Assembly (NCBI RefSeq): GCF_031312595.1
Contig: NZ_CP133592.1
Coordinates: 1,674,001 to 1,738,000, forward strand
Direction: 5' to 3'
From: Methanolobus sediminis
GTDB lineage: Archaea; Halobacteriota; Methanosarcinia; Methanosarcinales; Methanosarcinaceae
DNA length: 64,000 bases
Shown: positions 43,541 through 49,704 of the stretch, one piece after another
Layout: each line of letters begins with the position of its first letter
Numbering within the stretch: position 1 is the first letter of the stretch
Translations under genes and position numbers: made by a program
Notes under the pieces: model-generated
Database searches by the model: none
What the model was told of the DNA's origin: nothing
Seen by the model: the letters and a program-made list of their open reading frames with translations, nothing else

Positions 43541-43618
43541 TGGTGGGATAGCGCGGATTTGAACCGCAGTCCAAGCGTCCCAAACGCTCGAGGATGGACC
43601 AAGCTACCCTACTATCCC
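43541..43618 (-). tRNA. tRNA-Pro (UGG anticodon)
   Basis: On the minus strand the acceptor arms GGGATAG and CTATCCC pair fully. The anticodon stem GAGCG/CGCTT encloses the 7-base loop TTTGGGA with anticodon TGG (Pro, codon CCA), and the T arm reads CGGTTCAAATCCG. The 3' CCA is encoded (complement of 43541-43543). No intron is seen. Confidence 0.95.
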
Positions 43619-43990
43619 AATCAGATTCAGAAGGGTAGCCCTTACATATCATATATTGTATAAAAAGGTTTCGAGTGGCTAGGTTTGAGCTTAAAAAGGA
43701 GGTGATATATTTGTATTTTCATCACGTAAAGTGTGTATATCAATTTTTAAATATATATAATGTGGAGGGGACATTGTAAAGTATCATTGAGAAGTCTCAA
43801 TATTTTGATGGAATCCATTATTATAATATTGTAATTTAAGACTAAATCATTGTCTGTAGTCATATACATTCAATCAATCACAATCTGCTGTCCTCTATTA
43901 ATATAATTAATATATACATTTGGGAATATTTGTCAATGTTCCGCAGGATATTTATACAAAAACTGTATCTCTTTTTTTTATGGTGTACTT
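43619..43990. other. AT-rich region at the edge of the accessory island
   Basis: This 370-base gap between the tRNA and the Tyr-repeat gene is strongly AT-rich. It contains a candidate 22-codon frame with a perfect ribosome site (43711-43779) and a TATA-like ATATTTATAC at 43948-43957, about 40 bases before the next start. No att-like repeat of the tRNA 3' end was found. Confidence 0.55.
43711..43779 (+). CDS. Candidate 22-aa small gene with perfect SD and TTG start
   Basis: AGGAGGTGAT (43697-43706) is the exact 10-base complement expected for an archaeal 16S rRNA 3' end. Four bases later a TTG begins a 22-codon frame (YFHHVKCVYQF, then LNIYNVEGTL) ending at TAA 43777-43779. No TATA box is obvious upstream and the peptide is not recognised. 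The perfect SD in an otherwise AT-rich stretch is the main argument. Chance or a decayed gene start are real alternatives. Confidence 0.3.
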   Translation: MYFHHVKCVYQFLNIYNVEGTL

Positions 43991-44449
43991 ATGATGATTA
44001 AAAATACAACTGCCCATAAAACAAAAACCAGCGATCTAGGTATCGTTCTCTTTGCAGCTAGAACAGACCAGGAATTTGCATTCTTGAGGCAAAATCAGAC
44101 AAAAGAAAATTCATCATATGGGAACGAGTGGAACGACACGCATCGATATGATCAACATAGCTATGAGAATGTCTACAATCAAGGCTATTCTGATGGAACA
44201 TATGGCAATTTTTACTCAAACGGAGCTTCTTGTGAAGAACAAAGTGAAAACGACAAAATGACCTTTGAATCAATTCCTCTAAAAAACCTACTGCAAATAC
44301 GAGCTGATGGTTTTATACACAACTTTGCCAATCAAGGAATCTTCTTTGCTAACGAAAACGGACTAACTCTATTAAATGGAATAAAAGAAAAGACCATTGG
44401 GCAAATCAGAGTTCAGAACCCTGAAGTTATCAAAGCGCTGATGATCTAA
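43991..44449 (+). CDS. Candidate RiPP precursor with Tyr-X-(N/D/Q) repeats
   Basis: The 152-aa protein has three parts. Residues 1-40 are a leader-like stretch (LGIVLFAARTDQEFAFL). Residues 43-78 form a Tyr repeat: YGN, WND, YDQ, YEN, YNQ, YSD, YGN and YSN occur in order, mostly every four or five residues, each aromatic with Asn, Asp or Gln two positions later. Residues 90-152 look like a small folded or follower domain ending KALMI. There is one Cys (C81). There is no signal peptide and I recognise no family. It ends 22 bases before a radical SAM/SPASM gene, and the pair lies in AT-rich DNA. The triplets match the aromatic-X-X pattern of radical-SAM cyclophane peptides, so I read it as a RiPP precursor, by inference. 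Confidence 0.6.
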   Translation: MMIKNTTAHKTKTSDLGIVLFAARTDQEFAFLRQNQTKENSSYGNEWNDTHRYDQHSYENVYNQGYSDGTYGNFYSNGASCEEQSENDKMTFESIPLKNLLQIRADGFIHNFANQGIFFANENGLTLLNGIKEKTIGQIRVQNPEVIKALMI

Positions 44450-44471
44450 TAAATGTGCTGGATCTGAAAAT

Positions 44472-45419
44472 ATGAGTGAAAGACCACTACCAAGTTTTCC
44501 TTTCCGGATAGAGTTTGAGGTTACTGGCCTTTGTAATATTGACTGTAAATATTGCTATGCCAGACCACTAAGTTCACTTACTCCAACAGTTGATCAACTT
44601 TGCTTCCTCTTCAATAAAACAAAAGAAGAAGCTGATCCTTTTGAAGTAATCATACTTGGAGGAGAACCTTTCATCCGAAAAGATATTATTTCCATTCTTG
44701 AACTTGCTCAGGGTATCTTTAAAATCCAAAAAATTGGTGTCAGTACTAACGGTACGTTAATCCACAAATTAACAACAGATGATTTGACAAGATTAAAAAC
44801 GTTGTCAGAACGTGGCCTTTCATTTCAGATCACATTAGACAGTACAAATCCAGAGATACATGACATCTTAAGAGGAAAAGGAAAGGATACCCTTGCAGGA
44901 TTAAATACCTTTGAAAAAGAGGATATTCCTTTTGTTATTGGCATGTGCCTGACTTCACATAACTATTCCGATATTACAAATAGTATCACTCAATTGCTAA
45001 CAGATTATTCTCAATTATCTCATATTAACTTAATGCCGCTACAGCCCTTTTCTCCGAGTGATAAAACATACTCCTCGTATTGTCTTGCATCAGAACAAAT
45101 GAGAAAAATCCGTAATGAAGTAGCAGACATTATCCTGGACGCTGGGCGAAGTGATGTAACTATTTCAGGCGTTACCGATTGTGGCGAAGCGATTGATGCT
45201 CTTCCATTAATCAATACTTACAACTTTAAAACATGTCTTGCAGGCCTAACCAGGGCTGGTGTATATCCAGATGGCAGTGTTTCTCCCTGCACAACAATGA
45301 GAAACCATTCACTTGGAAATCTCTACAATGAAAGCTGGAAAGAAATCTGGACTAGAGCACGTAAACGATTCGAGAACTTGGACATAACAGGTAGTCAATG
45401 TCATGCTCTGTCAACATAA
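44472..45419 (+). CDS. Radical SAM/SPASM enzyme, likely peptide maturase
   Basis: The 315-aa protein has the radical SAM motif CNIDCKYC (residues about 17-24), the GGEPF motif for SAM, and STNGTLI and FQITLDS strands. The C-terminus begins a SPASM domain: CLAGLTRAGVYPDGSVSPC fits CX12GX4C, and GNLYNESWKEIW is the family helix. The following CX2CX5CX3C block is absent. The frame ends at GSQCHALST with a single Cys, so only one auxiliary cluster or a truncated SPASM is likely. It lies directly after the Tyr-repeat protein gene, which fits a precursor/maturase pair. No transporter or protease gene is adjacent. Confidence 0.85.
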   Translation: MSERPLPSFPFRIEFEVTGLCNIDCKYCYARPLSSLTPTVDQLCFLFNKTKEEADPFEVIILGGEPFIRKDIISILELAQGIFKIQKIGVSTNGTLIHKLTTDDLTRLKTLSERGLSFQITLDSTNPEIHDILRGKGKDTLAGLNTFEKEDIPFVIGMCLTSHNYSDITNSITQLLTDYSQLSHINLMPLQPFSPSDKTYSSYCLASEQMRKIRNEVADIILDAGRSDVTISGVTDCGEAIDALPLINTYNFKTCLAGLTRAGVYPDGSVSPCTTMRNHSLGNLYNESWKEIWTRARKRFENLDITGSQCHALST

Positions 45420-45671
45420 GTGCTGACTATATACACTACATAAAATAATTGCAGTTAGGCCGATTCTTATTTAATTCGTTTCTGCAAAACAGTTTATGAA
45501 ACTATAATATAAATAATAATTCTCATCGGTATAAATAGTAAAAATTATATATGTATGTCCTCTTTCCCATTTGATGTGGTTTTAAAATATTGAATTGTTA
45601 TTAAAGCTGTCAATGGATAAATCGGGTGGTCAAAAATGTCCTATCACAGTTTCGATTAATTGGTGGTAAAA

Positions 45672-46784
45672 ATGAAAGAACAACAAAAATCAATTTACAA
45701 AAAAGTATCAATTTGCTTTATCTTATTGAGCCTTGGCTTGATGAGCGCTCAGGTAGCATGTGCTGAAACCTATACTTTGGACGAACAGTGGGATGACTTA
45801 TCTATAGAAGGTAGTTGTGTTGCCATAGATTCTTTTGATAATGTTTATGTCGGGTCTTCTCAAACCGTTGAATACTACAAGTATGATAGCAATGGGAATC
45901 TCATAATGGATGTTGAAATCAATGATCATGTAGGTTCTATTGCCTGTGATTCCTCCAACAATGTGTACCTTCGAGCTAGCTATTTTATTTACAAGTACGA
46001 TAGCAATGGTGACTTAATTACTAAATGGAAGCCCAGTGGTAGCCACTTTGCTGTTGATTCTTTGGGTAATGTTTATACTTACTATCTGAATTCCCTTCAT
46101 ACAGAGTATAACGGAATAAAGAAATATGATAGCAATGGTAACTTAATTTCTGAGTGGTATTCAGAAGGTAGCGAGGACGGACAAATTATTCCCAGAACTT
46201 CAGGAGACTACATTGCAGTCGATTCATCAGATAATGTTTATGTTACTGATTATAGTAACATGCGCATTCAAAAATTTGACAGCAATGGCAATTTTATATC
46301 TAAGTTAGTTTTTGAAGACTGCCATAACATGGCTGGAATTGCTGTTGATTCGTCCGATAATCTTTATGTTGTCAAGGCTGATGATTCTATAAGGAAGTAT
46401 GATAGTACTGGTAACTTAATTGCCGAATGTGATATTAAAGGCAACGGCATAGGCATCATGGATGTTGAAGTTGATTCATCTGGCAATCTTTATACCAGTG
46501 GCTACTCAGTAATTAAAAAATTTGTTTTAAATACTCAGGATGTTGGGCAAAGTGAAGATGCTGATCAATCGACAGAACAATCACAAGATTCAGATTATGC
46601 AAGTGAGATCACTTCTGATTCTGTAACTGAACAAACTCAAATGAGCAGCGTGGAAAGTGAAGATGGTGTCGCGGAAACCGAGGCTGCTACAACTGAAGAT
46701 ACAGATAATGCAAAATCACCTGGTTTTGGAATCGTTTGCGGAATTGTATGCTTGTTTGCTGCGGTTTTGTACAATAGAAGATAA
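45672..46784 (+). CDS. PGF-CTERM surface protein with beta-propeller repeats (short)
   Basis: The 370-aa protein has a signal peptide (VSICFILLSLGLMSAQVACA), repeated units of the NHL/six-bladed propeller kind (AVDSSDNVYVTDYSN, then IQKFDSNGNFISK), a Ser/Thr/Glu/Asp-rich stalk (about residues 290-345), and the C-terminal SPGFGIVCGIVCLFAAVLY plus NRR. The SPGFG-helix-basic tail is the PGF-CTERM signal cut by archaeosortase A, followed by lipid attachment in haloarchaea. The start is the ATG at 45672 after TTGGTGGT. It is a smaller paralogue of the next gene. Ligand and function are unknown. Confidence 0.88.
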   Translation: MKEQQKSIYKKVSICFILLSLGLMSAQVACAETYTLDEQWDDLSIEGSCVAIDSFDNVYVGSSQTVEYYKYDSNGNLIMDVEINDHVGSIACDSSNNVYLRASYFIYKYDSNGDLITKWKPSGSHFAVDSLGNVYTYYLNSLHTEYNGIKKYDSNGNLISEWYSEGSEDGQIIPRTSGDYIAVDSSDNVYVTDYSNMRIQKFDSNGNFISKLVFEDCHNMAGIAVDSSDNLYVVKADDSIRKYDSTGNLIAECDIKGNGIGIMDVEVDSSGNLYTSGYSVIKKFVLNTQDVGQSEDADQSTEQSQDSDYASEITSDSVTEQTQMSSVESEDGVAETEAATTEDTDNAKSPGFGIVCGIVCLFAAVLYNRR

Positions 46785-46803
46785 AATTGCAGATAGCAGC
46801 TCG

Positions 46804-46840
46804 AAGATATGAGAACTTAAGTCTCATATCTTTACTTTTT
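46804..46840 (+). terminator. Terminator between the two propeller genes
   Basis: AAGATATGAGA (46804-46814) and TCTCATATCTT (46822-46832) form a perfect 11-bp stem with a 7-base loop, followed by TACTTTTTC. Confidence 0.75.
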
Positions 46841-46874
46841 CAAATATTTATATTAAACTAATTGAGGAGTGAAT

Positions 46875-48818
46875 ATGATAAATAATCTTATTTGGAAAAA
46901 AACGTCATTAATTCTTCTTTTACTGATTTCTATACTGGCCAGTGTTTCTGTAACGCATGCTGAAACTTATTCATTTGTGACAGAATGGGGTTCAAGTGCT
47001 AATAACGGTTATTATGAATATCATCCGACCAGTGTTGTCGTTGATTCTTCTGGAAATGTTTATACAATTGACAGTTATGCCGTGGCATATGATTCAGACA
47101 TAAACATGATTAAGAAGTTCGACTCATCAGGCAACAAAATTGCTGAATGGGGTCCTTCAGGGAATGGAGACGGTGAACTGGCTGTTGCAAACGGTCTTGC
47201 TCTGGACTCATCAAATAACCTCTATGTTGCAGAAAGAAATCGTATACAGAAATTTGATAGCGATGGTAATTTTATTCTTAAATTTGGTTATCAGGGCAGC
47301 GACGATGGCGAATTTAATTATATCCGCAGTATTGCCGTTGATTCGTCAGGCAATATTTATGTCGTTGATTCTCAAAACCAGCGTATTCAGAAGTTCGATA
47401 GCGAGGGCAACTTCATTACAAAATGGAAATGCAATGTACTGGATATAGCTGTCGATTCATCCGGATATGTTTATGCCGCTTCAAGTAACAACATCCAAAA
47501 GTATGATGGAGAAGGAAACTTAATCGATGAATGGACAGCTTATAACTTCGTTAATATTGCAGTTGATAGTTCAGATAATGTTTTCATTGCAAATCACAAC
47601 TTAATTCAGGAATTAGGTTCAGATGGTACGGTTATTAATTCATGGGGTTCCGCCGGGAATAGTAATGAAGAACTCGATTACATTTATGATCTTGCTACCG
47701 ATTCATCGGGTAATGTCTATGTCGCTGACTACGGGAACCTTTGCGTAAAAGTATTTGATGATGCTGGCAGCTTCCTGAGAAAATGGAGTTATGAAGGTAC
47801 AAAAGGCGGGAAATTCAATCTCCCGAATGGCATAGCTGTTGATGCTTCTGGTTCTGTTTATGTCGTTGATTCCGGCATGCCTTCCACTGCAAGTACAAAA
47901 GGTATCAATTCCCGTATTCAGAAATTTGATAGTAACGGTAACTTCATTTTTAAATGGGGTTTTAATGGGGCAGGCGAGGGACAATTTAGCAATCCAACGG
48001 ATGTTGCCGTTGATTCATCAGGTAATGTCTATGTTGTGGATCATGACAATGCACGCATTCAGAAATTTGATAGTAATGGTAATTTCATATTGGAGTGGGG
48101 TTCTTCCGGTCATGGAAAAGGAGAATTTGATAATCTTGGTGGAATTGCTGTCGATTCTTCCAGTAATATTTACGTTGCAGATTCAGGGAACTATCGTGTT
48201 CAAGAGTTTGATAGCGATGGCAATTCCATAGCTATATGGGGTTCACAGGGTGCAGATGATGGTGAATTTTCATCCATAAATGATGTTGCTGTTGATTCTT
48301 CAGATAATATCTATGTTGCTGACGGAAAATATATCCAAAAATTCGATAACAAAGGAACTTTCATAACCAGATGGGATTGTGGTTCCTATGCAGTTATATG
48401 GAAGATTGCTATTGATTCGTCGGATAATATTTTTGCAGCCTGCAACAATAATCTTGTTCAGAAATATGATAGTGATGGCAATATCATAACTGAATGGGGT
48501 TCTAAGGGTGACGGAAAAGGAGAATTCAGTAATCCATCTGGAATTGCAGTCGATTCTTCTGGAAACGTATATGTTGTTGATAGTGGAAATGCACGAATAC
48601 AGAAATTCGCAGTGAGCAGTCAGGCAATTGAACAAAATGTAAACGACGAGGATAACTCCGAAAATACTGTAGCAGAGTCTATTAGTGACACTTCTGTAGA
48701 AGATGCTGCAACAGATATCGAAACAGATGAAAATGCTGAAAGTTCACAATCCCCTGGATTTGGAATAGTATGCGGAACAACAGGGCTGATTGCTGCATTT
48801 TTATATCGCAAAAAGTAA
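46875..48818 (+). CDS. PGF-CTERM surface protein with NHL beta-propeller repeats (long)
   Basis: The 647-aa protein has a signal peptide (LILLLLISILASVSVTHA), then many tandem NHL-type units of about 45 residues with the pattern IAVDSSGNIYVVDSQNQRIQKFDSEGNF followed by WGSxGxxxGEF, enough for two propellers. An acidic Asn/Glu/Ser stalk and a C-terminal SPGFGIVCGTTGLIAAFLY plus RKK follow. It should be displayed on the cell surface through the PGF-CTERM route. The ATG at 46875 follows GAGGAG. Blades are highly alike, suggesting recent internal repeat expansion. Carbohydrate or protein binding is plausible but unproven. Confidence 0.9.
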   Translation: MINNLIWKKTSLILLLLISILASVSVTHAETYSFVTEWGSSANNGYYEYHPTSVVVDSSGNVYTIDSYAVAYDSDINMIKKFDSSGNKIAEWGPSGNGDGELAVANGLALDSSNNLYVAERNRIQKFDSDGNFILKFGYQGSDDGEFNYIRSIAVDSSGNIYVVDSQNQRIQKFDSEGNFITKWKCNVLDIAVDSSGYVYAASSNNIQKYDGEGNLIDEWTAYNFVNIAVDSSDNVFIANHNLIQELGSDGTVINSWGSAGNSNEELDYIYDLATDSSGNVYVADYGNLCVKVFDDAGSFLRKWSYEGTKGGKFNLPNGIAVDASGSVYVVDSGMPSTASTKGINSRIQKFDSNGNFIFKWGFNGAGEGQFSNPTDVAVDSSGNVYVVDHDNARIQKFDSNGNFILEWGSSGHGKGEFDNLGGIAVDSSSNIYVADSGNYRVQEFDSDGNSIAIWGSQGADDGEFSSINDVAVDSSDNIYVADGKYIQKFDNKGTFITRWDCGSYAVIWKIAIDSSDNIFAACNNNLVQKYDSDGNIITEWGSKGDGKGEFSNPSGIAVDSSGNVYVVDSGNARIQKFAVSSQAIEQNVNDEDNSENTVAESISDTSVEDAATDIETDENAESSQSPGFGIVCGTTGLIAAFLYRKK

Positions 48819-48828
48819 AACACAATTT

Positions 48829-48870
48829 AAGAAAGGATGAATATTTTTTCTCCTTTCTTTCTTCCTTTTT
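48829..48870 (+). terminator. Terminator after the long propeller gene
   Basis: AAGAAAGGA (48829-48837) and TCCTTTCTT (48851-48859) form a perfect 9-bp stem with a 13-base loop, followed by TCTTCCTTTTT. Confidence 0.7.
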
Positions 48871-48930
48871 AACCAAATCCTATTATCAGAACATTTGATG
48901 ACGATTTAGATTCATTGATCTAATTATTTC

Positions 48931-49704
48931 TCACTGGTCAACTGCGCTGTCAAAAGCCCTGCTTCCAATTGTCATCATAATAAGTGCAAAAGCTGTGATA
49001 ACTCCAAGTGACAGGGTGATAGGCACATCGGAAGCGTCCAGCAGCATCCATCTCAGTGCTTCCACACCATACGTTAGTGGATTCAGGTGAACAGGTATGC
49101 TCAGCCAGCCTGGGAGATTCTCCATCGGGTAAAATGCAGTGCTTGTCATAATGGTTGGAAACGTGATGAAAGTCATCATCATCTGGAAACCTTCATGTGA
49201 TTCTATTTTAGAGGCTAATGTAATGCCAAGACCAATGAACCCCAGTCCCATCGTGAACATTATCGGAATGCACAGGAGCTCTCTCCATATGGAAACATAT
49301 TCTATTCCAATAACTCCGCTGATGATCATGAGCAGTGTGCCCTGCACCATTGCGGTTGTGACTCCACCAGCAGCTTTTCCAAGAGCAGTGTAAAAGCGGC
49401 TTACAGGCGCCACTAGAATCTCTTTCAGGAAGCCGAATTCCCTGTCCCATATGATAGAAATTCCTCCCATAAGCGATGCGAAGAGAATTGACATGCCTAT
49501 GATTCCCGGAGCCATGTAATCAATATACCTGCCGCTGCGAAGGGTCATGGTACTTCCCAGTGCAGAACCCATAATCACAAGAAAAAAAAGTGGCGTTGCA
49601 AGGGAACCTATTATCCTTGAACGTGAGCGTTTATATCGCAGCATTTCACGCAGCCACAGGGTGAACACTGTGTTCAGGCAGAGTCTTTTTCCTGAAAGTG
49701 CCAT
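48931..49704 (-). CDS. ABC-2 type transporter permease
   Basis: The 257-aa integral membrane protein (from the ATG at 49704) has six hydrophobic segments and the ABC-2 signature in its second half (LNPLTYGVEALRWMLL). The cytoplasmic elbow REMLRYKRSRSRIIGSL is typical, as is WDREFGFLKEILVAPVSR. The start follows GGGAGTGAG and overlaps nothing but directly abuts the ubiX stop, making it the last gene of the leftward sppA-to-permease cluster. No ATP-binding subunit gene is present in the window near it, so the partner must lie elsewhere. Substrate is unknown; daunorubicin/NodJ-type permeases look most alike. Confidence 0.88.
   Translation of the reverse strand: MALSGKRLCLNTVFTLWLREMLRYKRSRSRIIGSLATPLFFLVIMGSALGSTMTLRSGRYIDYMAPGIIGMSILFASLMGGISIIWDREFGFLKEILVAPVSRFYTALGKAAGGVTTAMVQGTLLMIISGVIGIEYVSIWRELLCIPIMFTMGLGFIGLGITLASKIESHEGFQMMMTFITFPTIMTSTAFYPMENLPGWLSIPVHLNPLTYGVEALRWMLLDASDVPITLSLGVITAFALIMMTIGSRAFDSAVDQ

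Follow-up and report, generated by a model that had tools for sequence, protein, structure and literature searches.

Are two closely packed genes of Methanolobus sediminis, one for a protein with a repeated aromatic triplet and the other for a radical SAM enzyme, the substrate and the maturase of a RiPP system? The initial annotation had proposed a triceptide-type system in a methanogen, and we followed up this proposal across the window, i.e., the whole stretch of 64,000 nucleotides that was analyzed. The methanogen host was confirmed by an mcrA match of 999 bits. The two ORFs lie on the same (+) strand, and the radical SAM gene with its CNIDCKYC motif begins 22 bases after the upstream gene, as first described. 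The features of the locus are collected in Table 1.

Table 1. Features of the precursor-enzyme locus (window positions)
Feature	Position	Strand	Basis
tRNA-Pro(TGG), left anchor of the insertion site	43541..43618	-	Conserved synteny with relatives
Probably foreign cassette, ~1.9 kb, holding only the two genes	43674..45602	.	blastn against syntenic loci, empty site, codon usage
Candidate archaeal TATA box TTTATACAAAAA, 29-40 nt 5' of the precursor start	43951..43962	+	Read from the sequence
Candidate precursor/substrate protein, 152 aa	43991..44449	+	ORF; without family match
Candidate core, eight [Y/W]-X-[N/D/Q] triplets (residues 43-77)	44117..44221	+	Triplet count and frame scan
Precursor C-terminal part (residues 81-152), possible follower/recognition domain	44231..44446	+	Sequence only
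Radical SAM enzyme with truncated SPASM/twitch-like C terminus, 315 aa	44472..45419	+	Pfam, alignment, model

The two genes were inserted together

To delimit the insertion, we compared the locus with those of relatives and set the borders of the cassette at the last base common to all relatives on the left and at the first base again common to G134 (locus L071) on the right. Some part of the left flank was matched by all 26 of the 26 other genomes of the genus. In the closest relative (L070), whose flanks are 92% identical, homology ends at 43673 and resumes at 48931, and the ~180 bases in between represent the empty site. In G134, homology is back from 45603, with the NHL-repeat genes present, and the place of the pair is taken by a different set of genes that spans 3.3 kb and has two lipoprotein-like ORFs among its members. 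As the site is empty in L070 and homology resumes at 45603 in G134, the pair constitutes a ~1.9-kb cassette in a variable hotspot.

The composition of the genes was compared with that of the host. Codon-usage log-odds were -0.21 for the precursor and -0.12 for the enzyme, while 33 host genes in the window ranged from -0.003 to 0.41, and the GC content at codon position 1 was 0.45 and 0.44, respectively, versus 0.55. Codon usage outside the host range and low position-1 GC suggest that both genes are probably foreign. Together, the adjacency of the genes, their foreign composition, and the joint insertion of just these two support a functional pair. Inverted repeats or long direct repeats that could mark the borders of a mobile element were not detected between 43450 and 46000, nor were Rfam RNAs between 43400 and 49000. 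The cassette encodes no protease and no transporter or dedicated exporter.

The candidate precursor carries a nonrandom triplet array

All eight of the aromatic-X-(N/D/Q) triplets originally noticed in the 152-residue protein were recovered (YGN43, WND47, YDQ53, YEN58, YNQ62, YSD66, YGN71, and YSN75), with spacings of 4, 6, 5, 4, 4, 5, and 4 residues. Between residues 41 and 80, N, D, or Q occupies the +2 position of eight of nine aromatic residues, when 2.4 were expected (P = 2e-5; 100,000 segment shuffles), and shuffling of the whole protein gave P = 4.5e-4, both values being post hoc, since the motif was chosen by eye. At other offsets, the counts in the same segment were 3 (+1), 1 (+3), 0 (+4), and 2 (+5). 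As a control, the triplets were counted in 6,509 open frames (≥50 aa) from 0.82 Mb of DNA, comprising the window and fetched loci. A density of 8 triplets per 38 residues was reached by no more than two of these frames (6 in the next best): the candidate precursor and a GrrA-like ORF in the alphaproteobacterial locus L014, which is a useful but not independent positive control, as this locus had been fetched as a radical SAM relative.

The array segment is rich in N, D, Q, G, S, and Y, and the X2 residues of the triplets are small or polar. The codons of the array are mixed (TAT, TAC, and TGG for the aromatic residues; AAC, GAC, CAA, AAT, and GAT at +2), and we found no DNA tandem repeat underlying the array, which therefore did not arise by a recent tandem duplication. 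The nonrandom array, the small or polar X2 residues, and the fact that the sole comparable frame belongs to a precursor of a known type make the protein well suited to the role of a three-residue cyclophane precursor.

A follower-like part behind the array had been put at 60 residues; such a part is present, but it extends over ~72. This C-terminal part had no Pfam match at an E value of ≤10 and no sequence match in the PDB. A resemblance of this part to PqqD/RRE domains, suspected by eye, was dropped, as the Pfam and PDB sequence searches gave it no support. An AlphaFold prediction of the precursor alone was uninformative (pLDDT, 32).

The enzyme has an intact radical SAM core and a truncated SPASM domain

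The downstream protein matched the Pfam profiles Radical_SAM (PF04055; 60.5 bits) and SPASM (PF13186; 35.2 bits), both above the cutoff. Its core motifs (CNIDCKYC at residues 21 to 28, a CX3CX2C motif; GGEP; and STNG) are intact. The SPASM match covers positions 1 to 51 of the 67 in the profile, and the description of this domain as partial was thus correct. The complete SPASM pattern (CX9-15GX4C-gap-CX2CX5CX3C-gap-C) is not present; the enzyme has the first half only and is at most twitch-like with three conserved cysteines, arranged as C255-x12-G268-x4-C273 and C310. The C255-to-C273 stretch is conserved between the enzyme and three relatives (alignment of L037 to L039). The relatives go on with CxxxxxC-GGxC and ~30 to 40 residues, whereas the enzyme ends at residue 315, five residues past C310. 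C310 was invariant in an alignment of 17 sequences, in which its placement is uncertain.

We considered a frameshift that hides the rest of the SPASM domain and rejected it, as no CxxC or CGGC remnant was found in any forward frame downstream, to 45659. Twitch domains hold one auxiliary cluster, and the cluster of MoaA has three cysteine ligands (PMC9012708). By analogy, C255, C273, and C310 could hold one auxiliary cluster, although damage to the domain is equally possible. No RRE was found in the enzyme, whose core starts at residue ~11, and no separate PqqD-like protein was found in the cassette, which has no third gene. Not every RiPP radical SAM enzyme needs an RRE.

The enzyme falls outside the known cyclophane-forming families

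To place the enzyme among described families, we compared it with NCBIfam models, by phylogeny, and by structure. Among the best 25 of 68 NCBIfam matches, all were below the cutoff; the nearest profiles were ScmE (91.5 bits) and WgkB (83.1 bits), followed by AhbD/NirJ, and none of the cyclophane-forming families (GrrM, XyeB, FxsB, and YhhB) was among these 25. In the tree, the enzyme fell outside the clade of anSME, GrrM, and YhhB (support, 89/91), and its long branch leaves its placement among the remaining sequences unresolved. The YhhB representative, from locus L012, fell inside the anSME/GrrM clade.

The AlphaFold model of the enzyme had a pLDDT of 76 and a pTM of 0.79, with residues 246 to 259 and 305 to 315 unreliable. 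Its best PDB matches were SkfB, SuiB, and anSMEcpe (E values of 4e-12 to 8e-12; 14 to 21% identity). The enzyme is of the right general class but does not belong to the triceptide maturases known so far. Two further assignments were tried and rejected. Viperins match the model as well, but a defense gene of this kind is contradicted by a score of 49 bits for the prokaryotic viperin (pVip) profile, lower than the 91.5 bits of ScmE, and by the presence of a SPASM domain. Membership in a SynChlorMet cassette is contradicted by the TIGR04250 score, which compares with a cutoff of 400, and by the lack of ScmD and ScmF neighbors.

No close homologues were found for either protein

The initial annotation had proposed searches of methanogen genomes and family models as a check, and searches with both proteins supplied no corroboration: there was no precursor homologue, and no NCBIfam cutoff was reached among the best 25 of 68 matches. 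The precursor was searched for in the rest of the order (185 genomes), in a phylum sample of 392 further genomes, and among viral contigs, plasmids, and phages. For the enzyme, no other genome of the order gave a match at an E value of ≤1e-40, and the phylum genomes yielded only three radical SAM matches (29 to 32% identity), one of which is ScmE (721 bits), the others resembling AhbD/NirJ2. We also searched for the enzyme in viral contigs, plasmids, phages, genome contigs, and the classes of G202 and G291, with generic radical SAM matches (22 to 32%) or none as the result. A scan of 84,980 species, which relied on exact matches of 8-residue peptides and could thus overlook homologues of less than perhaps 70% identity, gave only relatives at 22 to 31%. 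GrrM was not detected in 365 phylum genomes in a search run without a positive control, a result to which we give no weight.

A putative cross-linking pair and its alternatives

Our preferred reading, held tentatively and at slightly less than even confidence, is that of an orphan RiPP-like pair in which the enzyme oxidatively cross-links each aromatic residue i to residue i+2. Starting from the observed array, adjacency, enzyme class, joint insertion, and foreign codon usage, we infer a substrate relationship, a bond type, an electron path, a role for the three cysteines, and recognition by the flanks. The pair would have been acquired horizontally, and the 315-residue enzyme would act on the 152-residue protein encoded upstream. 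The [4Fe-4S]/SAM center at CNIDCKYC would initiate abstraction of a hydrogen atom from the C-beta of the Asn, Asp, or Gln located two residues after a Tyr or Trp, and the resulting C-beta radical would attack the aromatic ring of residue i. The electron may then exit via an auxiliary cluster bound by C255, C273, and C310. The product would hold up to eight three-residue cyclophanes, each with a loss of 2 Da, and recognition would fall to the two nonrepetitive segments, of 42 residues at the N terminus and 72 at the C terminus. The candidate roles of such a product are those of a peptide signal, an antagonist, or a surface or structural protein.

Chemistry of this kind has a precedent, as triceptide radical SAM enzymes join the aromatic ring of residue i to the C-beta of residue i+2, C3(Tyr)-Cb(Asp) and Trp/Phe-Cb(Asn) links included (PMC11002830). 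This precedent favors the cross-linking reading, as do the array statistics and the frame scan, the close packing of the two genes as the sole content of a sharply bordered cassette, their foreign codon usage, the three-cysteine cluster of MoaA (PMC9012708), the best enzyme matches, which are peptide-modifying or cofactor radical SAM/SPASM families including ScmE and WgkB, and the best PDB matches of the model, all of which are RiPP or protein-modifying radical SAM enzymes. Against it stand the lack of homologues and hence of any sign of conserved association or selection; an enzyme that is outside the known cyclophane clade, is below family cutoffs, and has a SPASM domain without CxxxxxC-GGxC; a cassette without an RRE, a protease, or a transporter; and an unusually long precursor with a long C-terminal extension. 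It is weakest in two respects, namely, that the pair is a singleton and that the SPASM domain is truncated. For the triceptide-type system first proposed, the substrate array, the adjacency, and the joint insertion fit, whereas an enzyme that is outside the families and their clade and lacks the last SPASM cysteines does not.

The enzyme might instead modify its neighbor by another reaction, e.g., a WgkB- or PqqE-like cross-link with a different topology, C-alpha chemistry or epimerization at Asn/Asp, or a modification at a single site in the C-terminal domain. The nearest profiles (ScmE, WgkB, and AhbD/NirJ rather than GrrM, XyeB, FxsB, or YhhB among the best 25 of 68) and the position outside the anSME/GrrM clade agree with this; in addition, WgkB links Trp to Lys by a C-C bond of a different type (PMC8326336), and the ScmE-type system of L081 has a Cys/Gly-rich small ORF and no aromatic triplets. 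We nevertheless regard another reaction as unlikely, given that the fixed +2 offset (8 versus 3, 1, 0, and 2 elsewhere) is a specific need of three-residue cyclophane formation.

The array could also be a low-complexity, Tyr/Asn/Gly/Ser-rich linker of an unrelated protein, with the radical SAM gene as its neighbor by chance comobilization. Such a linker would have the observed richness in N, D, Q, G, S, and Y; there are no homologues that could show conservation, accessory cassettes often hold unrelated genes, and the motif was picked by eye. However, the +2 offset is nonrandom within the same composition (P = 2e-5, post hoc), the mixed codons speak against a DNA repeat, and the genes are closely packed with nothing else in the cassette, which makes a chance linker distinctly improbable. 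Finally, the locus may be a decaying RiPP cassette whose enzyme has lost the SPASM end and its activity. The ORF stops five residues after its last cysteine, where relatives add CxxxxxCGGxC and ~30 to 40 residues; no remnant of the missing part lies downstream in any frame, and the coding statistics of both genes are weak relative to host usage. On the other hand, both frames are open throughout, the CNIDCKYC, GGEP, and STNG motifs are intact, the three C-terminal cysteines are still in place, and the cassette border lies 183 bases past the stop codon, which means that the insertion edge did not truncate the gene. We consider decay slightly less probable still.

Cross-linking by a working pair could take a more specific form: a repeated Tyr-centered cyclophane protein of an archaeon, made by a non-anSME/GrrM enzyme through a convergent i-to-i+2 link with a MoaA-like three-cysteine cluster, no RRE, and recognition of the substrate through its long C-terminal domain. 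This full combination seems unlikely. Archaeal RiPPs, those of radical SAM enzymes included, are widely predicted, yet very few have been made or characterized; a 2025 survey names two haloarchaeal lanthipeptides as the only ones that earlier work had validated (PMC12144867). Among the open-access papers that a text search listed, no title or abstract concerned an archaeal triceptide. If the pair works as proposed, it would represent cyclophane chemistry in a methanogen, with an eightfold-repeated Tyr substrate and a minimal auxiliary domain, and thus a new path by which an archaeon arrives at a bacterial type of peptide chemistry. The new elements would be the archaeal host, the Tyr-dominated internal array, the 72-residue extension, the lack of an RRE, and an enzyme from another branch. 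As the system consists of two genes, it is directly testable by coexpression.

Comparison with known systems

We compared the pair with the triceptide families GrrM/OscB (TIGR04261), XyeB (TIGR04496), FxsB (TIGR04269), YhhB (NF041707), and YxdB. In common with these, aromatic-X-(N/D/...) triplets occur in a substrate that adjoins a radical SAM/SPASM gene, and Tyr-Asp and Trp/Phe-Asn triplets are documented triceptide substrates (PMC11002830). Unlike in triceptides, the enzyme has an incomplete SPASM domain and lies outside their clade and models, the array is internal with a 72-residue C-terminal extension, and the host is archaeal. In L014, a GrrA-like Trp/Gly-rich precursor is located directly upstream of its radical SAM gene (407.7 bits against the GrrM/OscB model; cutoff, 310), a gene order like that of the pair, but the core is C-terminal, the SPASM domain is full, and our enzyme is 27% identical over the matched half. 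The radical SAM protein of L012 (9980 to 11092; a Paracoccaceae MAG) scored above the cutoff of the cyclophane-forming YhhB model (474 versus 445 bits).

ScmE (TIGR04250; L038/L081), the best NCBIfam match, is archaeal and 31% identical to the enzyme. Scm cassettes contain ScmD (PqqD-like), an ScmF-like radical SAM protein, and a Cys/Gly-rich small ORF, none of which is found in the cassette of the pair. In another archaeal genome (L081, 5498 to 5680 and 6854 to 8276), a Scm cassette with ScmD, ScmE, and an ScmF-like radical SAM protein includes a Cys/Gly-rich candidate precursor of 60 aa, SPYSCGPGSAPNNPGGKGSCGAGYNAGGNGGCAGGYTVV. WgkB (NF050035), the streptococcal Trp-Lys maturase and second-best profile match, likewise forms a C-C bond from an aromatic ring to a nearby residue, but the match is confined to the N-terminal half (83 bits; cutoff, 650), and the bond topology is different. 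SkfB, SuiB, and anSMEcpe have full SPASM or twitch domains, unlike the enzyme, and SkfB and SuiB carry an N-terminal RRE, which the enzyme lacks.

Other genes of the insertion hotspot

The region from the tRNA-Pro gene to the ABC-2 transporter/UbiX-like genes (43674 to 48930) is an insertion hotspot of the genus that is empty in some species and holds lipoprotein-like ORFs in L071 and L073. Within the same variable hotspot, two tandem secreted NHL/beta-propeller proteins (45660 to 48818) are encoded that are present in G134 and absent from L070. Their C termini (SPGFGIVCG...LYNRR and LYRKK) resemble PGF-CTERM archaeosortase signals, and the second NHL protein scored 296 bits against ScyF (cutoff, 350).
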